Below are positions 40,014-57,881 of a stretch of DNA of 64,000 nucleotides, piece by piece. The stretch's first letter is position 1; every line of letters starts with the position of its first letter. Location: NCBI RefSeq assembly GCF_001723175.1, contig NC_064657.1:992001-1056000 (forward strand). Reading direction: 5' to 3'. Origin of the DNA: Penicillium oxalicum (lineage: Eukaryota; Ascomycota; Eurotiomycetes; Eurotiales; Aspergillaceae). The position numbers and the translations under genes were made by a program. The notes below the pieces were generated by a model, which was given only the letters and a program-made list of their open reading frames with translations, was not told the origin of the DNA and did no database searches.

Positions 40014-43013
40014 TTTGAGAGATGGAGAGAGAATTGGAGCCTTGAAAGATTGCAATGATGTGATGAGGAGGTCCTGGTGGGCGTAGGTCTTTTGAAAGGA
40101 CTAGAGAAAAAAGCTAAGATGTCAGTTGCCATGACATGGTGCGGAGGCGTTGCGTTTGCATGTCATTCACAGGCGAGCCTCGCATGGGTGCCGGGTTTGT
40201 CAAAGCCCAGATCGGGCGGCAGGTGGAATGTAGGGAGCAGGGAAGGGATCTGACAGACAGAGTCGAGACCACGCCGACGAAGACTTACCGTGAAAGCCAG
40301 GAATTCTGGGGTGTTGTTTTGGGAATTTCCAACAGGAGGTGGAAGAAGCAGAAAAAGTGAGGAGCAAAGCCAAGAGCAACGCCGGTTGAATGCAGGAGGG
40401 AAGCTCGGTAGCGACCGACTGAGTGTGGAGTCGAGTGGGAATATGAGATGTAAGATAGGGGAGGATCAGACAGAGGAGCAGATCGGACGAGCAGAGTTGT
40501 GGAAAGGGACTTTCACGGGGAAAAGTGGAGGAGACGAGGATTAAAAGCAAGGAGTGGAGTCAAATGGATTGATCGATCACGAGGCCATCGCCGAAGTCTG
40601 TCTGGCCATCAGGGAGCAGTGGTGTACAGGCTTGGCCAAACTGGGTTTCACTGAAGAGTGTGATAAAGCTCAAGACAACAGTATGTTTGTATGGCGAATA
40701 CGACGAGCATTGCTCGAATGGTCCTAAATATAAAACCTCCGTGATTAATACTTTCTAGGTCCCTCCTGCAACTGTAGATTAAAGCCACGGAGCTGGACGG
40801 TGGTTTGTCGACCCGAATCTTTTTTTTTCCGTCTCTGCGCTTGAATGGATCATGAGCTCGATTCACCAATCAAGGCTGTCAAAGTGAATCAAAGTTTCCT
40901 AATCGAAGCTAGGCAAGTCACTAGCGCGGTGAAGTGTGGAGCATGGCACCATTTTTCCCAGCTACACTTACCGACTGACTTGGTCGGTCAACCAGAGATC
41001 GAAGTTGCTCCAACGGTTACGATTGGAAGACTGCGCCATCTGTGCGTGGAAGCCTTGATCTCCACCAATACAGACCAAGGGAATTGGCTTGCACTGAGTA
41101 ACAAAGTCTTCCCGAGAGCCCATCGGGGGTCTTTTTTTTTGTTGACATTTGCCCCTAATGGGCAATTAAGTGGCTAGTGGGAGCCAGCTCCGAGGGTCTA
41201 ACCTAAAGGGGCACTGAGGCAATGCCGATCCGGGGATCTCGGCTGCCGAGCAGACCTGGACTCCATCGACCAGAGAACGCTGGGTTCCAAATTGATTACT
41301 CAAATCAACCCAGTCAGGGACTGGGACCTTCCATGGGAGATTGACTTTCGAGCAGCATACCCCCTTTTCCCGGATTGCACACATGATGCATAAAGCACTG
41401 TAGTGCACACGCATCGTATGTCTCTAAAGTTGCACAGCTTTTCATGTACAGCCAAATGTCGGCGGACAATTGCTTCAAGTGGCACTACAACTGAGGGGCT
41501 GGCTAGTCCAGTCTGACAGCTGCAGCTGGACCAAATAAGAAAATTAGTCTGCACTTCCACAATTCTGTGTGGTGCCCGCCACTCGGCCCGTCTGACGAAG
41601 GTGACTTGATTTGGGCATGCGATAAGGAATGTCTCACGGACAGGTTCTGCGCACAGTCTTGTGGACCGTAGACTCTAGCGGGTAGCGACCACGATGGGGT
41701 ATGCGAACCAGATTGAGACTAGGCGGAGGAGACCGATCAGAGGTCCGGCGGGGGGCCCAGCGTTGGGCAAGTGGCGACCATCGGTATCTCTCCCACCATC
41801 TTGATTCATACCAGATCGATGTTTCGAGGTACACTATTTACAGAAAGCTAGAACATTCGAGATTCGGGTAGACAGACCGGGGAGAAGAGGAGTCAAGAAT
41901 CCGGTTACCGAAACAGGAAAGACACAGTGGAGTTGGAGGAACTTTCAAGGCAAGCATGTTGCTCCGCAGGAATAAAGTTGGTTGACTATGCGGAGAATGA
42001 AACCAACCAATCAGAGGACTCACTTGAAGCATTCCTGCGTACAGATGCAGGTTAGCGACAGTTCACCTCGCAGTGCAGCCTGAACGCAGAACACGATGAG
42101 TATGCGATGTGATTATCTTCGGAGAATCATGGATCATTCATCAAGTACAACTCTATATCTGAAATCTGGTAAGGGATCTAACGATAGCCCTTTTTCTCCA
42201 ATCATCAACATGATCGTTATGATAGCGACATTGAAAGGCGTTATCATCCGACTTTCAGGTCATGCGGAAGGGTTGTTATCTTATCGAGGACCACGCCAGT
42301 TCTCAGCCATCGTCCAGAAGAACGTCTGTTACGCGCTCGACGCATTTGCTGACAGCGAAAACATTCAGCCTTGCCAAGAAAAATTATGTGCCTTATTCAG
42401 CTACAATTTCCAGTATACGTTACTTGCAAGTACCACCGATAAGGCTGAAGGGCACTGCAAATGTGATCGATTGGCTGTGAGCGCTTGGATGCCCGTGGCT
42501 GTGCTGGCGCAGTCTTCTTGAAACTTCCCATCCACAATATCCTCGTGGGCTTTCCAACTAGATACATCTCTGACCTGAACAGCGAATATTCTCAAAAAAA
42601 TAGATAACACACGGTATATGCCCTCGGAGCTGTGGTGCCCACTGACAGGCAGCCATTGCGTTCTACTGGGCTGTATCCCGGATTGTTGGCCGCCAACGTG
42701 CATCTCCATCCGCCCCCATACTCTTACGAGGGCATGTTATCCAGTTCATTCAGTTGGCTGATGAGCTTTGTTACCTCAAGCCTGGTGCATCAAAGACATT
42801 TTTCTTTTTTGCACAAGACAGAAGCAGCAGCCTAGAGTGCTCAGCCTCCAGCATCCTGCCGCAGTCTCATGTAGCCTTGAGGCCATTCTGGGGGTTAAAA
42901 AGGCCTTGCGAAAGACATGTAAATCATTCTGAAAGGGAAAAATCTTCAACTTAACATTCTTCAGACCTTCTCTCCCTCAAGATATCGAAGAGCACCTTAT
43001 TTTCCATTTCAAG
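40014..43013. other. Intergenic, 3 kb without recognisable gene
   Basis: Short frames at 40290-40544 (+), 41300-41560 (-) and 42096-42521 (+) have no recognisable domains, starts or splice partners. No terminal repeats or transposase remnants were seen. Confidence 0.55.
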
Positions 43014-43985
43014 ATGGCCCCAGCGGAAGACCTTAGCGAGAAAATGCAAAACATCAACCTGGATGACAGAAATGCCATACCAGAGCTCATCTTCCATCCT
43101 CGGCACGGTAGTATTCACGAGACATCCTTGGACACGATTCCCCGATACCTGTTCCGCGTGGTATCCCCTCGATCGAATGGCATGACAAACGTAAACTTGG
43201 CGCTTTCAAACATGGCACGTGAACAAGACATCAGGGAGAATTTACCGGAGCACGACATCTTCTACAACTTTCACGACAGTGAGGTCCAAGCTCGCAACGC
43301 AATTATCGTGAATGCTCACTTGAATGAATGGCGGAACGTCCACAGCCAAGATAATTTTGTCTCCTGGACGAGTTCGCTGCTTTTTGCCATCCAGTACATC
43401 TATTATCGGCACTTGTGGACAGAGGACCGGTCTGACCTTGCGGACATCAAGTTGTTTATCATTGACACGACTCGATTCACAAGGGGCACGTTTATACGTG
43501 ACCTTGATCTGATTGGCTCTTTCTCCAAATTCAATGACAGCCTGCGGAGATTTCAAAGACTGCGCCGTGGAAACAAATATTACTTTGGGGAGTATCTCTC
43601 TCAAGGCAGATTGAGTATCGAAGGAAAATGCCAAATGATCTCCGCAGATGTTTTGTTTGAGCAGCATCGACTTCAACGTCTGCAACCTCATTTTCATGAC
43701 CCAAACCTGATGAGACCCTCCTACAACCCCGAATGGGCCAATGCCGTCGTACGCCTGCGAGAAAGAATCTGGGCTCAACATGTCATAGTTTTGGAGACTG
43801 AGATGAATAGCCGGCTCGCAGCGATGCGTGAGATTATAGACCACTTTGACGATGGTTGGAAAGCCCCCATGGCCATCTACTTTGTCGCGCTGCTCGGTTA
43901 TCCGAAAGTTGCTACGGTTCCTGGTGAGGGCGGAGGCATGATGGGGTTGAAAGCATTTGGTGTCGACCTCTTCTCAGGTCGGTAG
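43014..43985 (+). CDS. DUF7587 protein, ADP-ribosyltransferase-like motif pattern
   Basis: A single 323-codon frame. The core PRYLFRVVSPRS, VNAHLNEW, DNFVSWTSSLLFAIQYIYYRH, IFIIDT-like KLFIIDTTRF and NKYYFGEYLSQGRLSI matches the fungal DUF7587 family. The order of an Arg in a YLFR strand (R48), a Ser-Trp-Thr-Ser-Ser strand (117-121) and a late Glu (E193 in FGEYLSQG) mirrors the R-STS-E arrangement of one clade of ADP-ribosyltransferases. I infer a possible ART fold; no enzymatic activity is known for the family and no secretion signal is present. A downstream frame (44030-44305) may be a separate gene or a 3' exon. Confidence 0.75.
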   Translation: MAPAEDLSEKMQNINLDDRNAIPELIFHPRHGSIHETSLDTIPRYLFRVVSPRSNGMTNVNLALSNMAREQDIRENLPEHDIFYNFHDSEVQARNAIIVNAHLNEWRNVHSQDNFVSWTSSLLFAIQYIYYRHLWTEDRSDLADIKLFIIDTTRFTRGTFIRDLDLIGSFSKFNDSLRRFQRLRRGNKYYFGEYLSQGRLSIEGKCQMISADVLFEQHRLQRLQPHFHDPNLMRPSYNPEWANAVVRLRERIWAQHVIVLETEMNSRLAAMREIIDHFDDGWKAPMAIYFVALLGYPKVATVPGEGGGMMGLKAFGVDLFSGR

Positions 43986-48247: not shown

Positions 48248-49933
48248 TCATGACGAGACCTGCGGAGTCTGTGTCCGATTCTCCTTCTCACTCCCCTCGT
48301 CACCATTCTTGTTCGTAGTACACCGAGACATCCAGGATTTCATATCCGCAGTGAGAACCTTTTTCAGGCTGATATTCGCCATGTGAATCATCCCCAAGAA
48401 TTGCCGCGGACCCGGCATACCTCCCGGGAACACCAGATACAGCCCGCAGTCCTGCTCCGCATCGGGTCGGAACTTGTCATTGTATGCCTTTTTCCCTTGA
48501 ATCGGCAGTCTCTGGAATGTATGTCCGTACAAGGTCCGCGTGAGACGGGCCAAGGGTCGCGACATCCCCGTGACATCTTCCGGGACCAGAGCATGCGAAG
48601 GCTCGAATCCGAAACCCAAGTACGAAACTCCCGCACGGTGCAGCAAGGCCATGGTCGAGACAATGAGCAGATCACTGATGCCCTTTGGGGCGCCGGGAGC
48701 CGCAATGCAGGGGTCGACGTGGTAGCCTCCCTCGCCCAGACGGCGAAGGGCAGCGAACCCGTTGATTTTCCCATCAGGCCCGCGGCTGTAGATAAAGGTC
48801 ATCAGGGAAGGAAGGGCGAATGGGTCGTACACCGTGATGAAGGCTTGCGGCCCCCCCGAGGCATTTCGTTCTGCGCGCCACGAGTCGTAGATCCTCACCA
48901 GCTCTGTTTGTAGCTGGGCATCAGTCCCATGCACAGCAGGCGCATACACCCCCAATCGAACCCCCCCCTTGTCGGGATTGAGGAGCTGACGGTTTTGAAC
49001 AGCGATGCGTTTCCCACTGCGCTCCATGAGAACCTCATTGGTCTGCGGATTCAGAACACGCTCGGTTCCGAAACGAATGGTGGTCCATCCCTGGGGTTGC
49101 GCAATCTCCTTGACAAAGGCGGCACTGGCTCCCATGAAAGCAATGCCCCATTTATGTTGGCGACGATAGACGGCGAAATCGGCCAGCAACGACAGGATCA
49201 TGCGCGGCTCGCAGAGAGGGTCACCTCCCACAATGGCCACTTTGTTGCGGACCTTGAACGAAAGGGCCCCGGTGCGGCTCTGATTGACAAAAAAGCGATA
49301 ACTGGGATCCAGAATCCCCATGTTGGCGACTCGGCCGTACTGCGCGGTCAGGCGCTGGATCGTGGTCATCGTGGCGAAGTCATCGAGACAGAAGACGGCA
49401 CCGGCCTCCCCGACCCGAGGAGGAGGACATTCATCTTCAAAGGACGATCGCGACTCGGAGGAGTCCGTGCTGGCTCGCTCGTCGCAAGGCTCTGATGGCG
49501 CGAGGGTCGATGCGGTGGAGATGTCGGTCTCTTGGGAGTGGAGGCCATCACTGGTACATGTGCGACTACTGCTGCCCCGCGAGCTTGGATACGAGGAGAG
49601 GGTGAAAGAAGCACTGAAGTCGTTGCGAAGATGATCAACCACTGATGCGCTGGATATGTGGATGCGAGTGGGGAGGTTTGAGGAGGCGGTGATGGTGTGC
49701 ATCTGATCCGCCAGCGCTTCTCCCAGTTCCTCCACCAGAGTCGTCTTCTTCTTGTCTTTGGTGGCGGGGGCATTGCCACCGATGTTCTTGCGACCTTTTC
49801 GCCCCCGAGCCTTCTTCTCAGGCGCCGGTGTGATGGAGATGGTGGGACGCATTTTCGATTTGAGTATGTCGTCGGAGGAAGTGTCGATTGCGGATGAGAG
49901 AGTGGGTTGTGAGGAGGGCAGGATGGAGGCCAT
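48248..49933 (-). CDS. Free-standing DUF2156 aminoacyl-tRNA transferase, candidate ergosteryl-glycine synthase
   Basis: One frame of 561 codons from the ATG at 49933; the frame extends upstream to 50029 through a hydrophobic leader that I consider non-coding. A disordered, Ser/Lys-rich N-terminus of about 175 residues is followed by the DUF2156 (MprF C-terminal-like, double GNAT) domain: VAIVGGDPLCEPRMILSLL, WGIAFMGAS, GWTTIRFGTE, then FALPSLMTFIYSRGPDGKING and SYLGFGFEPSHALV. DUF2156 enzymes transfer an amino acid from charged tRNA to a lipid. In Aspergillus one member fused to AspRS makes ergosteryl-aspartate, and a free-standing one makes ergosteryl-glycine. Absence of a tRNA-synthetase domain fits the latter. 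The specific substrate is inference. Confidence 0.8.
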   Translation of the reverse strand: MASILPSSQPTLSSAIDTSSDDILKSKMRPTISITPAPEKKARGRKGRKNIGGNAPATKDKKKTTLVEELGEALADQMHTITASSNLPTRIHISSASVVDHLRNDFSASFTLSSYPSSRGSSSRTCTSDGLHSQETDISTASTLAPSEPCDERASTDSSESRSSFEDECPPPRVGEAGAVFCLDDFATMTTIQRLTAQYGRVANMGILDPSYRFFVNQSRTGALSFKVRNKVAIVGGDPLCEPRMILSLLADFAVYRRQHKWGIAFMGASAAFVKEIAQPQGWTTIRFGTERVLNPQTNEVLMERSGKRIAVQNRQLLNPDKGGVRLGVYAPAVHGTDAQLQTELVRIYDSWRAERNASGGPQAFITVYDPFALPSLMTFIYSRGPDGKINGFAALRRLGEGGYHVDPCIAAPGAPKGISDLLIVSTMALLHRAGVSYLGFGFEPSHALVPEDVTGMSRPLARLTRTLYGHTFQRLPIQGKKAYNDKFRPDAEQDCGLYLVFPGGMPGPRQFLGMIHMANISLKKVLTADMKSWMSRCTTNKNGDEGSEKENRTQTPQVSS

Positions 49934-52900
49934 GATGGATGAGATCAAGTATGAAAGGCAAAAAGAAAAAAAAATCAAGATCAGAGTCACGAGTGACGAG
50001 GAGATGGTCACCGGAGAACCAAAGCACACAAGTCACGATGGGGTGTTGACCGACGGAGTCGACCCTGACTGGAAGGCAGGATGAACCGAATAAGTCAAAA
50101 AGAAAAAGAAAAGAATTGCGCTGGTAGAGTGTTTGGTGACCCCTGCAATGAATGCGTTGAATCTGGTTTGAGTGTGACTGCGAAAGTTGAATACGAGACG
50201 CTGAGTGCAGGAAGCTCGTGTTTTTAAAAAAGAGCAGAGCGCTGGAGCGCATGCCAATCAAAGTGTCCGACGCGAGGTAAATCCTGGAGCCTGAGAGCAT
50301 CACCACCTTTGCAACCCACCCTTTGAGACTTCCGAAACCCGGCCGGCACTCTGAAGGGGACTACTCTTTTTGGGTGACCGATTCTGAAAATAAATCAAAG
50401 CATGAAAGGGACCTTTGGTCTCCACCTTGCCTGGACCTCTCATCGGTCCTCATCGGTCTTCATCGCTGGGAACTCCCAATGCAAGGCCCAAAGGGAAGGC
50501 GCTGCAGAAATGATGCCGCACGGCCTCATTCCACCAGATTTACTTGATCTACTTCATCTTCACTTGTACAGACTGCGACTGGCCAGCAGTACTCGTAACT
50601 GATGACGGTTAGTCCCTCCTGAGTACCAGGACCCGACTGTGTAGTACGCAGTCGGTACTGAGCAGGTAGCAGAGACAAGGTCCAACTTCCACAGAACATC
50701 TCGTCGCCCAGCTCGTCAATTCCCATCCACCGAATTCCCGGAGCCAAAAGAACTGCAAAAAATAATAATCATAAAGACAGAGGGTCTGCAACGGTTGCCT
50801 GGTAGATCACGGCGTCATTCTGACCTCGTTTCCGGCCGGATCATGGACAGATTCTGGTCACACTCCATTCTCGAGAGACTCGATAGGAAGACCTTGGCCT
50901 CCGCCCGGGAAGCCGAATCCGCTAGGCAGAGATATTCTTCGAGGCTGACTGCAGAGCGGGTGTGGATCATGATCCCATTTCTCGCATGAAGGAATCACCT
51001 TCGACCCGACCCAAAGGCGGAGTGGCCCTGGTCCCCTCGTCAGCCAATGAGAAGGCTGGACAGAAGAGCGTTGGTGAAGCGATCGCTGCCCGGGGTTGAT
51101 CTGCAGGGTCAGGCCGATGTGGGGGGCTGAAGCTTCACTCTGCGTCTTTTGATTCTCTTCTTTCATTTTCTCTCTTTTTTTTTCAGAGAGATTTCCGAGT
51201 CGCTCTCTTTTCTCTCTACATGATGTCAGACAGAGTTCTTTGATCATGTCCGCGCATCCATAAATCGAGCAGAAACGATGTACATACGAGCACACATAGA
51301 CAATCTAGACATCCCCGCGGTATTCCTGTCATTTTCTGCGCCCCTGAGACGTCAATGTCAAGCTCGGTCCTGCCCGCAAGTGAATTCCAGGATCGACCCG
51401 GACACTCCGACCTCTTGACAAGTCAACATCTTCCTCATGGCTTCTGGGGAATCCGCTCCGACCCAGCAGGCCTGAAACCTCAACCCTGAAATGAAAATGC
51501 TGGTGCCTGCGGGCCCACTGCCGAGTTTTTCAGGCACCCATCCGACTGCCGCCCATCTGTCACGCCACAGAGCGAGTCAGGGACGTACACCTGTTCGAGG
51601 ATCCTTGATGTGTGTATGTGTATGAATCCGCTGTACTTCATCACGCAATCTGACTGATTGCAATTTTCCTCTTTACTTTCGTGGCTCCCCCCTTTTTGGT
51701 GTGGTATTTCTGGGGGGATTCCAGGGCCGATCACTGGCAATTTTTAAGATTCGGACAAGCCTCGTTAGTCCCGTCTTGGCAGTTTTTAAACTTTTTGCCG
51801 TTCCGAGGGCGATGGCCACCCGAGGTTGTTTACCGTGGAGATGTGCAGGGATAATGTGCAGTCTCAAAATGTAGATAACCGTTGAGAGGGGAGATGAACA
51901 AAAGAGAGTCCTTTAGAGATCGGTTGAACTTCAGCACACATTACACCCGGCCATCCACATCTGCTGGACCGGCAGCTAGTTAGGGCCAGACCATGCAACC
52001 TCCGGTAAAGCGTACAAGCGTCATGCCCCAACGAGACGCCCTAGAGCCATTCAGTCGGGGTTCAAGTCACATCCGTCACTACCTCAATGCCCCAGGACCG
52101 AGACTGCCTCTCTCTTCAAGGACAAGACCACCGGACATGCCGCGTGACTCTCCAGATTCTGACTTGCACCCTCGGCTTTTCTCGCCGCTGCTCGTGCGCT
52201 CGCCCAAGGCTCCCAACTCGCATGGGATGAGTATCGGCGAGAGGGCCATACGGTGTCCATGATCGTATTTGGTAGCGTGTCTCGTGACTCTCACTTGCAT
52301 GGCGCTGTAGACTAAAGGGAGGAGGTCTCAGTCTTCCCTCCGCTCACAGCGGTGATACAAGAACCTCCTCCCTTCGCTGTCCTGAAATCCCTCAAATCAC
52401 TCCTGTGATCGTAGACTGTTCAACATTCGATTGCTCAATTCCCGCATTTCCGTCCCCAGGGAGAACAAGGGGCGGAGCATGGATGCACTCGGTTCATGCC
52501 GCCGCAGGGGGCTTGCTGGCAAAAGTATCCACTTTCCGTCGCGCACCAGGTCCAGGCATCTCCATTCTCATCTAGCATGTTCAAACGGGTAAACGAGCGG
52601 ACCGAGCAGGGGCCATAAAAGGAAAAAGATGGAGTCCGACCTCTAGTCTCTCGTCCCATATAGCCTCCGTCAACGCCTCGTCCCCGAGCTCCCCCAGGTT
52701 GGTCGGCGACCCACCCCCTGCATCGTCTGGATTGTGACACTCACCGAGGCATTGATGAGTTCAATAGCGCACAAATGCTTGGCCTACGCCAAGCTCATGG
52801 GATTTCGGACCAAAGTCGGCATTCATGCCCCGCCAGGCATCCGGGGGAAGAAAACCGATCGTCCTTGGAAATTGAAGAAAATCATCGCCTTCCCTTGCCG

Positions 52901-54440
52901 AGTGGAATATTGATAACTTCACGAGCGACTTTTTCCAAGAGTGCAGCCCTTTCAGTTTGTTTGCTCAAGTGATGAAGATGCTTGGCCGCCCGAGTATCTA
53001 CCTCTCTCTCTGCCTCAATAACCCACCTTGATTGCTCAAACCAAGTCGCGTCTGGTATCGCCGGCAGATCGAATCCATGGCCTCTCCCTACTCAGTCTAC
53101 CCCCCGCTCGAAAACCTCAGCCACATACCGCCAGTAGGTATTGCCACAACTCACTCTTTGACAAACTAAACGATGGGTCGACCAGTCAACTCTGACTCCA
53201 CTGCCATCTCACCTTCTTGTGTAGTTCAGAAGCGCCCAAAGAAAGTCAATCTCGGACCCGCCAGGCCAGTACATGGGGTCTCTGCATTCGGCGGGAATAT
53301 GTCCTGTCAGCGGCTGCCAAGCTGATGGTTGCCTAAATGCTCGGAACGGAACCGCCGCTCCCACGAATTCCCCCAGCCCATCCAAAATCGACAGAGTCTT
53401 TGACGTAGACACCACGACACTAAGCTCAAGTCCAAGGGTCCAGCGGCCACAAGTCAAGAGCCAACAGGAATGGTCGTCCATCCTCGTCCGGGTGTGCGAA
53501 AAAGGCTGCCTAAATCTCATCCCCGCCAAACCACCACCACAGAGATATTGGAGAGACTGCCCGGGGCGATTCGGGATGGCTTGGCGCTAGCTCGGGCGCC
53601 ACTGAAGGTTGGAACATAACCCTTGTAGGGCATGTCTTCTGCGAGATGGATGGAGAAATAACCGAAGACATGCGATTTGTCGGAAATGGGGGTCTTGAAT
53701 CGTAAAGCTTGTCGGCCGGTTGATGCAGACCAAATCATCAATTCCGAGCAAGTGATGCCAGATTGACGTGTTTTCCATCCACTCTGAGCCCACCCAATCC
53801 AATCCCCTCACAGGCAGACTCGGACCGTGAAAGAATGGTGGCAGTGAGAAAGCACTGAGTGATCCCAGAAGGAGATGACTTGGGTCATCGGCCAGTGTCA
53901 TACATCTAGACAGCAAAAGCTGTAGAAAATGAGTGTCTCGTGGGAGACAGTACACCAGTACGCAGAGCAGAGAGGATTTCAAGGTTGACTTTGAGTCTTC
54001 AATTGGACTCTTCGGTTGGCAGTCAAGGCGTACACTTACCCCCAGTGGCACATCACCTTCTCCGGGTCGATCTGGGTATGGTTCATCCCACCTCAGAAGG
54101 TCTTCACCGAGGGCATATTGCCAACAACAGCTCAATTATGCTCACGCTCACAGAGTTTGATATGGCTGAGTGCAGGGTGAGTCAATCTGCAGTGATACAA
54201 AAGAGCTCACCGGCAGGAAAGAAAAAGGGACAGAATTTGATTGTTTCCCTAACTAAGTACATTTGACGGATCTTGCCATGGGCATCATCTGTCGTGTTCA
54301 GGGGCGCGGAAGAATTCCAACTGACGAAACATCAGACAGGGGAGAAAGAAGTCAAAAAAGAGGCTTGTGCATCAGCTTCTAGCCCGAGAGATCAAAATAA
54401 GCTTCATCCACCCCAGCTGCTGACACTCGATGCTGTACTT
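49934..54440. other. Gene-poor region, 4.5 kb
   Basis: No frame here has a recognisable domain, signal peptide or convincing splice partners. Longest frames are 50858-51295 (-), 51993-52262 (+) and 53587-54135 (-). The first 350 bases are the DUF2156 promoter, with pyrimidine tracts on its sense strand. No terminal repeats or transposase remnants noted. Confidence 0.55.
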
Positions 54441-56733
54441 GAGTTTGTCCTGACACAAGCACTGTAAACAGTGAGGTGATGCCTGTCCAAATAACTATGC
54501 AAGGAGTGCCAGATTGAGAATTTGAAAATGAAAAAGTGCGTTCAGCCCTAGGGGATGACTTCAAGGCACAAGTGAACCAGAAGCTTTGAACGACATGTCC
54601 ATATGACCGTCTCAATGGATTTGTCCTGACGGGCAAACGGCTGTTTGCGTGACATCTGTTCAGAGAAGACAGCAAAAATTTGGAAAGTCGATGATGGGAA
54701 GAATAGAGTAGGAAGATCGAGGAAAAATGCCGCGGGGAAGGTCGACGTCGGAGGGATACTCGATACTGATCTCAGTGAATTTGTCCTGACGCGTGGAGCG
54801 ACGTCCATGCGATGCCTGTTCAAAGAGAAAAGCAACGAATATATCATATCGTAGAGAAACGTGGCATCAAAAACTCGAAAGTGCGTAACCGGAAGCGAAG
54901 GGACGAGAAATCATTGCCCACATGCCCAAATCCTGTCTCGATGAATTTGTCCTGACGCATAGAATGATATCCACACGATGCCTGTTCGAAGAGAAAGAAA
55001 GGGGCGTATGGTGTCGAAGTGAATTGTGACGCGAGCGAGATTAATGTTGGAGACGGAAAACGGGAAGGTTACGGTGGTTGTCAATATACCCCATACCTAT
55101 CTCAATGAATTTGTCCTGGCGCAGAGAATGATATCCAAGCGCTGCCTGTTCAAAGAGAGGAGCTAAGAGAATTGGAGGAGAATTGAAATCACAAGGGAAA
55201 TGGGTATGCTTTGGGAACTCTGAATCTTCATCGCTGGATTTGTCCTGACACGCAGATTATGGTAGTCTCGTGACGCCTGTCCAAGGTAGAAATTCAAAAG
55301 CCCAATGGTTGACACTGAAGTCGGAGTTGATGCGCAGATTTTGGTGGTGCTGATGCTCGATGCTTCATTTGGATTTGTCCTGACACGTAGCCTCAGTAGC
55401 AACGTGATGCCTGTCCAAAGGAATATGCAAGAAGCGCCAGACTTAAAAGTTTGTTCAAAAAATTGCGCTCAGCCTGAAGGCATGAGTAAAGTGCTCGATA
55501 GGCCAAAAAAGGGCCGAGCGACATGTCACCAGAAAAATGGCCATAATCTTTGCATTTTTTCTGACACGTAAAGTTCGATGATTACTTTATGCCTGTTCAA
55601 AAAGAAAAGAAAGTTGTAGACGGTCGAGGTGCGTGACAGAAGCGTGAAAAATAGAGCGGATGTTCGAATTTGGTTGCCGGAATATCGAATGCCCCTCTCG
55701 ATGAATTTGTCCTGACGCGTAGACTCACGTCTACACGACGCCTGTTCAAAGAGAGAGGCATGTGATATGGATGTCGTGGAAAATTCAGGCGATAGCGAAG
55801 AACGAGATGAGGGTGGGAAGCAGAATCGTTGTTGGAAGGTGGTGGTCGGAATACCAAATGCTTTTTTCAATGAATTTGTCCTGACGCGTGAATTTTCATC
55901 CACGCGATGCCTGTTCAAGGAGGAAAGCAGCTGGTATGGGTGTCGCGGATAATCAAGACGGCGGTGGTGGGCGATACGAGAACGAGAAAAAACGAAACGA
56001 GTATTCGTTGTTGAAGTTCGAAATAACATGTGCTCTTCTCAATGAATTTGTCCTGACGCGTGAATTTTCATCCACACGACGCCTGTTCAAGAAGAAGAGC
56101 AAAGATTGTCGATACCAAAGGAGTCGAGAGAAGGGGCCTAAGGAGCGAAGCGATGCGAAAAAAGAAAAAACAAACGGTGGTTGAGAGCGGTCGATGAGCC
56201 CAACTTCTGTCCTGATGAATTTGTCCTGACACACAATGTTACTTGTATGATGCCTGTTCAACAAGACAATCGAAGGGCGTTGATGTCGTGAGTGGGAGAA
56301 GAAAAAGCGATTGTAGAAGCGATGCGGAAATCGAGAGCAACGGACGGTGGTTGATAGTGGTCGGTACACCCAGTGTCTATCTTAATGAATTTGTCCTGGC
56401 ACACAATGTTACTTGTGTGATGCCTGTTCAAAAAGAAGAGCGGAGGGTGTCGATGTCGTGGAGAAGGAGCGAGATAATGATCGTAGAGGCGAAGCGAGAT
56501 TTAATGCGAGAAGAACGGACGGTGGTTGAAAGTGGCCGATACACCCAATGTTTTTCTCAATGAATTTGTCCTGACACACAATGTTCATTGCGTGATGCCT
56601 GTTCAATGAGGAAACAGAGGGCATAGTTGTCGAAAAGGATGCAGTGGCTGCTGGTCGTCAATCCACCCTGTCTGTCTCGATGAATTTGTCCTGACGCACA
56701 AATGGGTATTTGCACGATGCCTGTTCAAAGAGA
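54441..56733. repeat. Array of about 15 stem-loop cassettes, roughly 165-base spacing
   Basis: Copies begin near 54441, 54615, 54775, 54941, 55105, 55234, 55371, 55551, 55701, 55869, 56041, 56213, 56384, 56559 and 56679. Each has a left flank close to GAATTTGTCCTGAC, a variable 17-24-base centre, and a right flank close to GATGCCTGTTCAAAGAG (plus strand). The centre is usually an inverted repeat whose arms differ between copies: CACTGT/ACAGTG (copy 1), GCAAAC/GTTTGC (2), GTAGAC/GTCTAC (9), CGCGT/ACGCG (10), CACACAA/TTGTGTG (13), CAAAT/ATTTG (15). Copy 8 has lost part of the left flank. Intervening stretches of 80-130 bases are purine-rich on plus, and some share TGGGTGTA-like text. Minus-strand reading frames through the units are not conserved. 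Function unknown. Confidence 0.85.
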
Positions 56734-56817
56734 CGAGCAGAGAGGAAGACACGAAAGAACAAAAAACAAGATGCAAAAAAACAGAGCAAAAAAAAAACAA
56801 AACAAAACAAAAGAAAA

Positions 56818-57001
56818 CGGCGTTGCTTGACAGAAACTGGAAACCAGTCTGACAAGCGTGGGTTTCTGATAGAGGGAAAGCGGAGTTGTCTGACAGGGAC
56901 TGGAGGCCAGTTTGACAGGCGTAGGTTTCTGAGAAAAGGGGAAAGCGGAGTTGTCTGAAAGGGACTGGCGGCCAGTTTGACAGACGTGGGTTTCTGATAA
57001 G
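56818..57001. repeat. Three tandem repeats of about 62 bases with a small hairpin
   Basis: Three adjacent units share GTTGTCTGACAGGGACTGG, a loop, CCAGTTTGACAG and GTGGGTTTCTGA. The centre is ACTGGAAACCAGT, ACTGGAGGCCAGT and ACTGGCGGCCAGT, so ACTGG/CCAGT arms are constant and the loop varies. Adjacent to the stem-loop array and probably part of the same locus. Confidence 0.85.
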
Positions 57002-57445
57002 AAGACAACATTGATCGGAAGCCGATATGCTGTGGAAGAAGGGTGAAAGTGACGCAAGACCATGATTGTCCATCAACTTGTCAAGCGTGGGGAGTCTTTT
57101 GTAAAAGTACCTAATGGTCAAATCGTGTTGAGCATGTGTTATGTGTATGAGTGACTTACCACAATATAGTTGGTAGATAGAGGTTGGCAGATGTGACACA
57201 GGTCTAACACTTGTTAACATATCGATGATGTAACAAGTCATGAAGGATGATGATGAAGGATTATGGATGGTGATGATGGATGGTGATGATGGATGGTGAT
57301 GATGGATGGTGATGATGGATGGTGATGATGGATGTTGATGATGGATGTTGATGATGGATGTTGATGATGAAGAGTGATCAAGTATCATGAAGACATACCT
57401 CATTGTAGAGAGTGGAAGTTGGTTTTGATTGTGAAAAGAGAGATG
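57001..57445 (-). ncRNA. Predicted 5' end of a spliced minus-strand transcript entering the hairpin array
   Basis: Downstream of a TATA box on the minus strand, a pyrimidine-rich tract leads to an ATG at 57403 followed directly by a strong donor (AG then GTATGT, 57398). An acceptor, GTTAACAAGTGTTAG, lies near 57208. A second donor GTAAGT (about 57160) pairs with the acceptor GACCATTAG near 57113. Joined, the frame gives only 28 codons before a stop, so I favour a non-coding or short-peptide transcript running towards 54.4 kb. On this strand each array cassette is preceded by pyrimidines and TTGAACAG, which also resembles an acceptor. No transcript evidence is available. Confidence 0.35.
57254..57372. 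repeat. 13-base microsatellite (GGATGGTGATGAT)n
   Basis: About eight near-perfect copies; the last ones read GGATGTTGATGAT. The period is not a multiple of three, so it shifts frame at each copy and is unlikely to be coding. Confidence 0.9.
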
Positions 57446-57488
57446 AAAAAGAGAAAAAGAAAAGGAGGGGAGCTGGGAAATTAGGGGA

Positions 57489-57496
57489 TATTTATA
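57489..57496 (-). promoter_or_regulatory. TATA box, minus strand
   Basis: TATAAATA on the minus strand (within GGGTATAAATATCCCC) is followed by a long CT tract and then CACAATCAAAACC, the usual layout of a strong fungal core promoter. Confidence 0.45.
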
Positions 57497-57618
57497 CCCT
57501 CCAAATGGCACTAGTGAGATGCGCTCCTTCCTCAGTTGAAGTTTGCGTGTCGCTTCACTTGATAGGTTTGTTAGCGAGAGAGTTTCGCGCTCCTGCCTAC
57601 TCAGAATGTTTGCTTCAC

Positions 57619-57881
57619 AAGATCAGAAACGTGATTCTACCCGCAAACAGGGTCAGCGATTGGTCCTCTTCCCTGGCGAGATCAGGGAGGTGATCCCTCT
57701 AAGTGAGACCAGTCAAACAATTCCATTCGTAAGTGAGATCAGCGACGTGATCTCACGGACAAGCGAGATAGGGCAAATGATCCTATCTACAAACAAGCAC
57801 GAGCAGGTAATCCGATCTCACGGCCAAGCGAGATGAGCCAGGTTATTGTATCTATAGGCAGTATTAGGAACGTAATCTCAC
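57619..57881. repeat. About nine tandem 30-base hairpin units
   Basis: Units follow the pattern AAGCGAGATCAGCGACGTGATCTC plus a short spacer (often ACGGACAAGC). The arms vary but pair: GTGAGATCA/TGATCTCAC (57733-57756), AGATAGG/CCTATCT (57766-57788), GATCA/TGATC (about 57680). Outer units are more diverged. This family differs in sequence from the 165-base cassettes yet shares the variable-arm hairpin design. Confidence 0.75.

Follow-up and report, generated by a model that had tools for sequence, protein, structure and literature searches.

The locus

A tandem array of 15 units occupies positions 54426-56741 of the window, the 64-kb stretch of DNA that was analysed (contig C8, 992001-1056000; the genome comprises 30.77 Mb in 17 contigs). 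Towards lower coordinates, the first gene that could be recognised is that of an LPG-synthase-domain protein; a phosphoesterase open frame lies on the other flank (Table 1). The former product is a stand-alone LPG_synthase_C (DUF2156) protein with many relatives in Penicillium. Among the best 120 of its 355 matches the named relatives are mostly from this genus, the closest being that of Penicillium diatomitis at 82% identity; the host would thus be a Penicillium or a close neighbour of that genus, in keeping with the eukaryotic host assumed in the preliminary description. Fungal relatives of this protein act on ergosterol with aminoacyl-tRNA. A frame with DUF7587 was also found at 42933-43985.

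The units are 73-78 nt long (about 75) and separated by spacers of 47-105 nt, the start-to-start distances being 176, 160, 166, 164, 129, 135, 181, 151, 169, 172, 173, 170, 175 and 120 bases. A covariance model trained on these same 15 units in their minus-strand reading gave exactly 15 matches in the 64-kb window, namely the units themselves, with 50.7-86.4 bits and E ≤2.7e-12; on 100 unrelated loci (805 kb) its top score was 20.3 bits. The preliminary description had spoken of about 15 cassettes with constant flanks, spaced by some 120-180 bases; the count is 15, the flanking strings that it quoted are correct and the spacing is 120-181 bases. Its account of what makes up a unit was only partly right: the inner hairpin had been recognised, but neither P1, the covarying helix on the outside, nor P2 further in, and hence not the full span of the array. 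Three units are degenerate, u1 in its stems only and u2 and u8 in stems and loop.

Table 1. Features of the array and its surroundings (window coordinates; bits are covariance-model scores)
Feature	Position	Strand	Remarks
LPG-synthase-domain protein gene	48248-50032	-	PF09924
u1	54426..54503	-	50.7 bits; stems degenerate, intact loop
u2	54602..54676	-	63.0 bits; degenerate, loop CAGATGT
u3	54762..54836	-	78.6 bits
u4	54928..55002	-	75.5 bits
u5	55092..55166	-	71.4 bits; loop position 25 T->G jointly with position 51 T->C
u6	55221..55297	-	64.6 bits; P2 is UGGA/UCCA
u7	55356..55431	-	71.4 bits; P2 is UGGA/UCCA
u8	55537..55613	-	52.7 bits; degenerate, 3' loop strand UCAGAAAAAA
u9	55688..55762	-	86.4 bits; standard pairs at 23/23 consensus positions
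u10	55857..55931	-	82.2 bits
u11	56029..56103	-	84.4 bits; standard pairs at 23/23 consensus positions
u12	56202..56274	-	73.2 bits; P3 down to 7 bp
u13	56372..56444	-	73.4 bits; P3 down to 7 bp
u14	56547..56619	-	73.9 bits; P3 of 7 aligned bp
u15	56667..56741	-	82.0 bits; first unit along the proposed transcript
Second repeat family	56811..57000		3 copies of ~62-65 bp, short hairpin; plus folds lower in 3/3
Predicted 49-nt intron	57111..57159	-	GTAAGT...TTAG; read in sequence
Predicted 195-nt intron	57204..57398	-	GTATGT...TTAACAAGTGTTAG; read in sequence
First ATG past TATA box	57401..57403	-	ACAATGAG; GTATGT directly after; read in sequence
TATA box, then CT-rich leader	57489..57496	-	TATAAATA, context GGGTATAAATATCC; read in sequence
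8 ATCTCRC sites	57514..57881	both	just upstream of TATA box; 8/31 of the sites in the window
Phosphoesterase open frame	starts 60962	+	PF04185

Secondary structure and conservation of the units

Alignment and folding of both strands gave, for a unit read on the minus strand and from the outside in, the helix P1, a 2 x 2 loop, the helix P2, an internal loop, the helix P3 and an apical loop; the fold tested below was derived from these same 15 units. P1, the outer helix, has up to 10 bp and a pyrimidine-rich 5' arm. P2 is a short helix, UGAA/UUCA, for which u6 and u7 have UGGA/UCCA. Between P1 with P2 on one side and P3 on the other lies a conserved asymmetric internal loop, CAGGCAU / UCAGGACAAA, of 7 x 10 nt. 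P3 is a variable hairpin of 7-9 bp in the well-kept units, and its apical loop is unconserved. P1 was derived from single-unit folds and then counted; the minus-strand consensus of RNAalifold includes pairing in P2, in P3 and in the loop but leaves P1 out.

Conservation is very uneven along the unit. Mean pairwise identity between units reaches 92% in the loop and 87% in P2, but only 50% in P1 and 52% in P3. The pattern RACAGGCRT...CAGGACAAA is exact in 12 of the 15 units, the exceptions being u2, u5 and u8; ACAG is invariant (15/15) and ACAGG is found in 14/15. The 5' arm of P1 is 84% C+T against 65% in the spacers, and at least 83% in 11 of the 15 units, a value that 16.5% of spacer 12-mers reach.

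The spacers tell how the array arose. Similarity with z >3.0 (60 base shuffles for each comparison) was obtained for 18 of the 91 spacer pairs and the remainder are at or near background, which agrees with the earlier remark that the intervening DNA is largely different. The strongest likenesses join spacers 12-13, 11-12, 11-13, 1-7 and 9-10, with z values of 7.9-13.2 among spacers 11-13 and of 7.7 between spacers 1 and 7. From these likenesses, together with the identities of the individual regions, it follows that the array grew by duplication of single units and of blocks, followed by drift, while the loop was kept.

Covariation of the helix arms

When the 3' arms were reassigned between units, Watson-Crick cells in P3 (93/135) exceeded the expected 66.6 (sd 5.5), with none of 10,000 reassignments as high, and those in P1 (88/150) exceeded 73.1 (sd 4.4), with 11 of 10,000 as high. 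In P2 the count was 55/60 against 52.4 (824/10,000 as high), a test that is uninformative because P2 barely varies. The excess persisted when G.U was also counted as paired, with 108 against 95.4 in P3 (0/10,000) and 106 against 97.1 in P1 (62/10,000). Over all 23 pairs, 79.6% of the cells are paired, compared with 72.8% in shuffles (0/500), and change on both sides affects 16 pairs against 10.1 and 41 cells against 18.6 (0/500 shuffles in each case). Sliding the partners by 1-3 columns left 32-47% of the cells paired and 10-21 cells changed on both sides.

Since the kinship of the copies inflates shuffle tests, the paired changes of P1 and P3 were also placed on a tree. The tree was built with FastTree from the same alignment, has several branches of low support, and changes were assigned to it by parsimony. 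Fifteen branch events with both sides changed were obtained, against a null of 9.9 (sd 2.7; 247/5000 as high), and eight of these replaced a Watson-Crick pair by a different one (null 0.95, sd 1.0; 0/5000). Hence the arms do change together, as the preliminary description had stated: two-sided changes exceed the arm-reassignment, shuffle and tree-aware controls, and by the tree-aware count the covariation goes beyond phylogenetic expectation, on which the preliminary description had made its reading depend. Selection acting on the nucleic acid in its folded form is thus well supported.

Strand

The preliminary description had placed the inner hairpin on the plus strand. The consensus fold, the wobble pairs and the restricted and in-context folds all favour the minus strand instead. 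RNAalifold gave -7.67 kcal/mol for the minus consensus and -1.16 for the plus (from two separate alignments, with P1 absent from the minus consensus). The wobble cells of P1 and P3, read on minus, number 33 G.U to 14 A.C (two-sided binomial 0.008; 18:11 in P1 and 15:3 in P3), although these cells are not independent because the units share ancestry. Folds restricted to the register of the unit amount to -277 kcal/mol on minus and -244 on plus, and minus is the lower in 10 of the 15 units. Within a 2.7-kb RNA, folded with pairs limited to 250 nt, the mean pair probability of P3 is 0.64 on minus and 0.21 on plus; it reaches at least 0.5 in 11/15 units on minus and in 2/15 on plus, the corresponding figures for P1 being just 6/15 and 2/15. 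The covariance model also separates the strands (50-86 bits on minus and at most 14.4 on plus), a contrast that is not independent because the model was trained on minus.

Several results go against the minus strand. The loop pairs 24-52 and 23-53 are A.C / C.A on minus but wobbles on plus, and P2 has one G.U to three A.C. When single units are folded freely, minus is the lower in no more than 8/15 cases (six plus, one tie), the total energy of the long RNA is lower on plus (-727 against -626), and so are the folds of all three copies of the upstream 62-65 bp repeats. An RNA from the plus strand, with its poorer consensus fold and poor in-context formation of P3 and P1, is nevertheless less favoured, and we consider the minus strand to be probably the source of the RNA.

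Upstream region and coding potential

Upstream of the first unit on the minus strand, at 0.37-0.76 kb, the sequence contains a TATA box, a CT-rich leader and predicted introns, from which we infer that the array would be transcribed on this strand by RNA polymerase II from a TATA-type promoter near 57.5 kb. The eight ATCTCRC sites that precede the TATA box are not independent, because they are partly tandem or inverted copies. At 57620-57875 there are tandem and inverted repeats of the GATCTCAC/GTGAGATC type, which resemble a cluster of regulator sites. The predicted 195-nt intron includes a 13-bp tandem repeat at 57259-57369 (8.5 copies, 97% matches). In the second repeat family, the hairpin is formed by ACTGG/CCAGT, with outer arms that vary by copy (GCTTG/CAAGC, GTCTG/CAGAC).

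A single strong match was obtained for the frame beginning at the first ATG (57403-56603): P0121, a protein of 151 residues from a 12,050-base ENA contig, identical at 98 of 101 positions. The continuation of P0121 follows another frame of the window, which fits the loss of one 65-bp repeat. This indicates that P0121 would come from another isolate or a close relative with the same region, in which the frame is not kept. The number of repeats at 56811-57000 thus seems to differ elsewhere, P0121 reading as two copies. A second match, P0122 (E 3.4e-6, 18% of the query), was taken to reflect low-complexity sequence, and the third has an E of 0.38.

Eight frames of at least 130 residues lie wholly between the flanking genes; in the five that were scanned no Pfam match was obtained at cut-off, and one weak match, with an E of 0.088, lay below it. 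The frame 55526-56038, the sole in-array frame searched, has no protein homologue at E ≤10 among 117 candidates. The stretch from RACAGGCRT to CAGGACAAA measures 39-44 nt in the 12 units with the core pattern, and therefore the reading frames shift between units. Protein-coding exons were rejected, the units having neither a common donor site nor a common frame. Both the shift of frame from copy to copy and selection on the fold and not on a protein had been put forward in the preliminary description, and they are supported: tree-aware covariation, shifting frames, the lack of a Pfam match in the scanned frames and the lack of a homologue for the in-array frame all point the same way.

Searches for related sequences

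No second genomic place was found for the unit. In the own genome (30.77 Mb) all seven matches of a DNA search and all 12 matches of the exact pattern fell inside the array, these counts being lower bounds; further searches of this genome likewise led only to the array. Within that bound, the searches gave no sign of a dispersed MITE or satellite, the kind of family whose match was to refute the preliminary description. Rfam 15, ribozyme and riboswitch models included, gave no match at gathering score in the 64-kb window. At E ≤10, two sub-threshold matches only were obtained in 54300-57100, to FTX_4, a lncRNA (25.1 against a cutoff of 80), and to DUF805b, a cis-regulatory family (14.5 against 35.6). 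ARAGORN detected no tRNA genes. A CRISPR array was rejected, as it had been from the start: the stems of the units are only about 50% alike, spacers and units have the irregular or excessive lengths given above, and the host is eukaryotic.

The strict pattern matched no stretch in IMG/VR. A loose pattern that fixes 18 letters, one of which may be either of two bases, matched 37 stretches in viral contigs and at least 118 in prokaryote genomes, with a single match per locus among the matches listed. Of 117 such loci, 100 (L016-L115) were scored by the model and 17 (L116-L132) were left out; since the best of the 100 reached 20.3 bits, the matches were taken as chance.

Discussion

An asymmetric loop that hardly varies while the helices on either side drift is what one usually sees at a binding or catalytic site. 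Tandem ribozymes occur in repeat arrays, and each unit might be a small RNA domain of a new class that cleaves itself or binds a ligand; the loop would then be its active site or its aptamer, with the array either cut to monomers or acting as a cooperative ligand sensor. The constant loop amid changing helices does resemble the cores of ribozymes and aptamers; the absence of any Rfam ribozyme or riboswitch match at gathering score in the window, and the single locus found, make this unlikely. A little less likely still is a precursor of small RNAs, from which the 15 hairpins would be processed by Dicer into milRNAs or would serve as single-hairpin guides resembling an H/ACA pocket. Clustered hairpins of about 75 nt would suit such a precursor, and for fungi PMC8216456 has proposed that intergenic RNAs of one hairpin, whose interior loops are conserved, may serve as guides. 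However, a 7 x 10-nt internal loop would lie midway in the would-be duplex, inspection by eye revealed no common H (ANANNA) or ACA box within 40 nt after the 15 units, and there would be no need for 15 copies of the same guide. The pyrimidine-rich 5' arm of P1 makes the start of a unit resemble a 3' splice site, so that this arm, together with GAACAG|G in the hairpin, could supply decoy or alternative acceptors, as a sponge for a splicing factor or as competing acceptors. The invariant ACAG and the predicted 5' splice sites upstream go along with such decoys, which we hold to be improbable all the same: on the minus strand of 53001-57500, CTRAY followed by YAG within 4-30 nt occurs three times and never before a unit, no donor site common to the units follows them, and the acceptor would be hidden by the pairing of P1.

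Covarying inverted-repeat arms would also result from selection on a cruciform, and the preliminary description had left the choice between a folded RNA and a DNA cruciform. The first of these two is strengthened and the second weakened by the wobbles of P1 and P3: their 33:14 asymmetry on minus makes the cruciform the less likely, because a cruciform has no strand preference. An element acting as DNA, through a cruciform or as inverted repeats bound by a protein, for example a recombination or chromatin site, would leave both this asymmetry and the asymmetric conserved loop without a reason in duplex DNA, and stems of 7-10 bp would make weak cruciforms; we find it quite improbable. The poorest prospect of all is that a segment carrying a hairpin was duplicated in tandem by neutral events and has no function today. 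The units did arise by duplication, as the spacer likenesses tell, and three of them are degenerate, but loops that are 92% alike beside stems at about 50%, with most spacer pairs at background, and the compensatory changes on the tree make it very improbable.

The explanation that we prefer, and to which we would give about an even chance, is that the array is the main part of a hitherto undescribed noncoding RNA of this Penicillium-like fungus, made by RNA polymerase II, and that this RNA serves as a scaffold or sponge with many sites for a protein. A noncoding RNA transcribed on the minus strand from the TATA-type promoter near 57.5 kb would present the same element of about 75 nt fifteen times. 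In each copy the helix blocks, P1 with P2 and P3, would frame the internal loop CAGGCAU / UCAGGACAAA, at which one RNA-binding protein or RNP may recognise the RNA, and the array RNA would thereby concentrate or titrate its protein partner. With a scaffold or sponge, the helices would be allowed to drift, the copy number would be high and the degenerate u1, u2 and u8 would be tolerated. Fifteen tandem copies speak for multivalency, while the conserved loop could equally be ligand-binding or catalytic. That the locus holds a new functional RNA domain, whose internal loop would be protein-binding, ligand-binding or catalytic, as a 15-mer in one fungal noncoding RNA, which would make it a counterpart of roX or CsrB without known relatives, is a possibility that we put slightly below an even chance.

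RNAs built in a comparable way are known. Those of the CsrB/RsmZ type in bacteria offer one motif in many hairpins of a single RNA and titrate a protein, the roX and CsrB RNAs gather or titrate an RNA-binding protein, and the Xist A-repeat consists of tandem structured repeats that recruit protein in a mammalian noncoding RNA. With roX-like RNAs, in the functional sense, the array shares several tandem copies of one stem-loop motif that are kept under structural constraint, here 15 units with covariation. In CsrB the motif is GGA in hairpin loops, whereas the present array, which is eukaryotic, would have an asymmetric internal loop in its place, with a putative binding partner. Xist likewise has tandem structured repeats, but it is mammalian, its repeats are different, and the likeness implies no shown relation. 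Drosophila roX1 and roX2 are, according to PMC4719309, likewise noncoding RNAs with repeated stem-loops that otherwise evolve fast; the likeness to them would be functional only, the present locus having 15 copies, in a fungus, of an internal-loop motif between two helices without an Rfam match. The fungal noncoding RNA motifs of Li & Breaker 2017 (PMC5640933) and Gao et al. 2021 (PMC8216456) were likewise found by comparative structure analysis; in their main texts 'tandem' occurs 0 and 0 times, 'repeat' 0 and 0 times and 'array' 0 times and once, in another sense. In the open-licence literature searched, no title or abstract opening among the papers listed describes a fungal noncoding RNA with hairpins in a tandem array.

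Whether long noncoding RNAs have conserved structures is a matter of dispute, and this locus amounts to an internal comparative experiment, with compensatory change among 15 paralogous copies in one genome. If transcribed, it would give a tractable genus a fungal noncoding RNA composed of recurring folds, and the identity of what binds to such an evolving array, together with the reason for its high copy number, could be tested directly.
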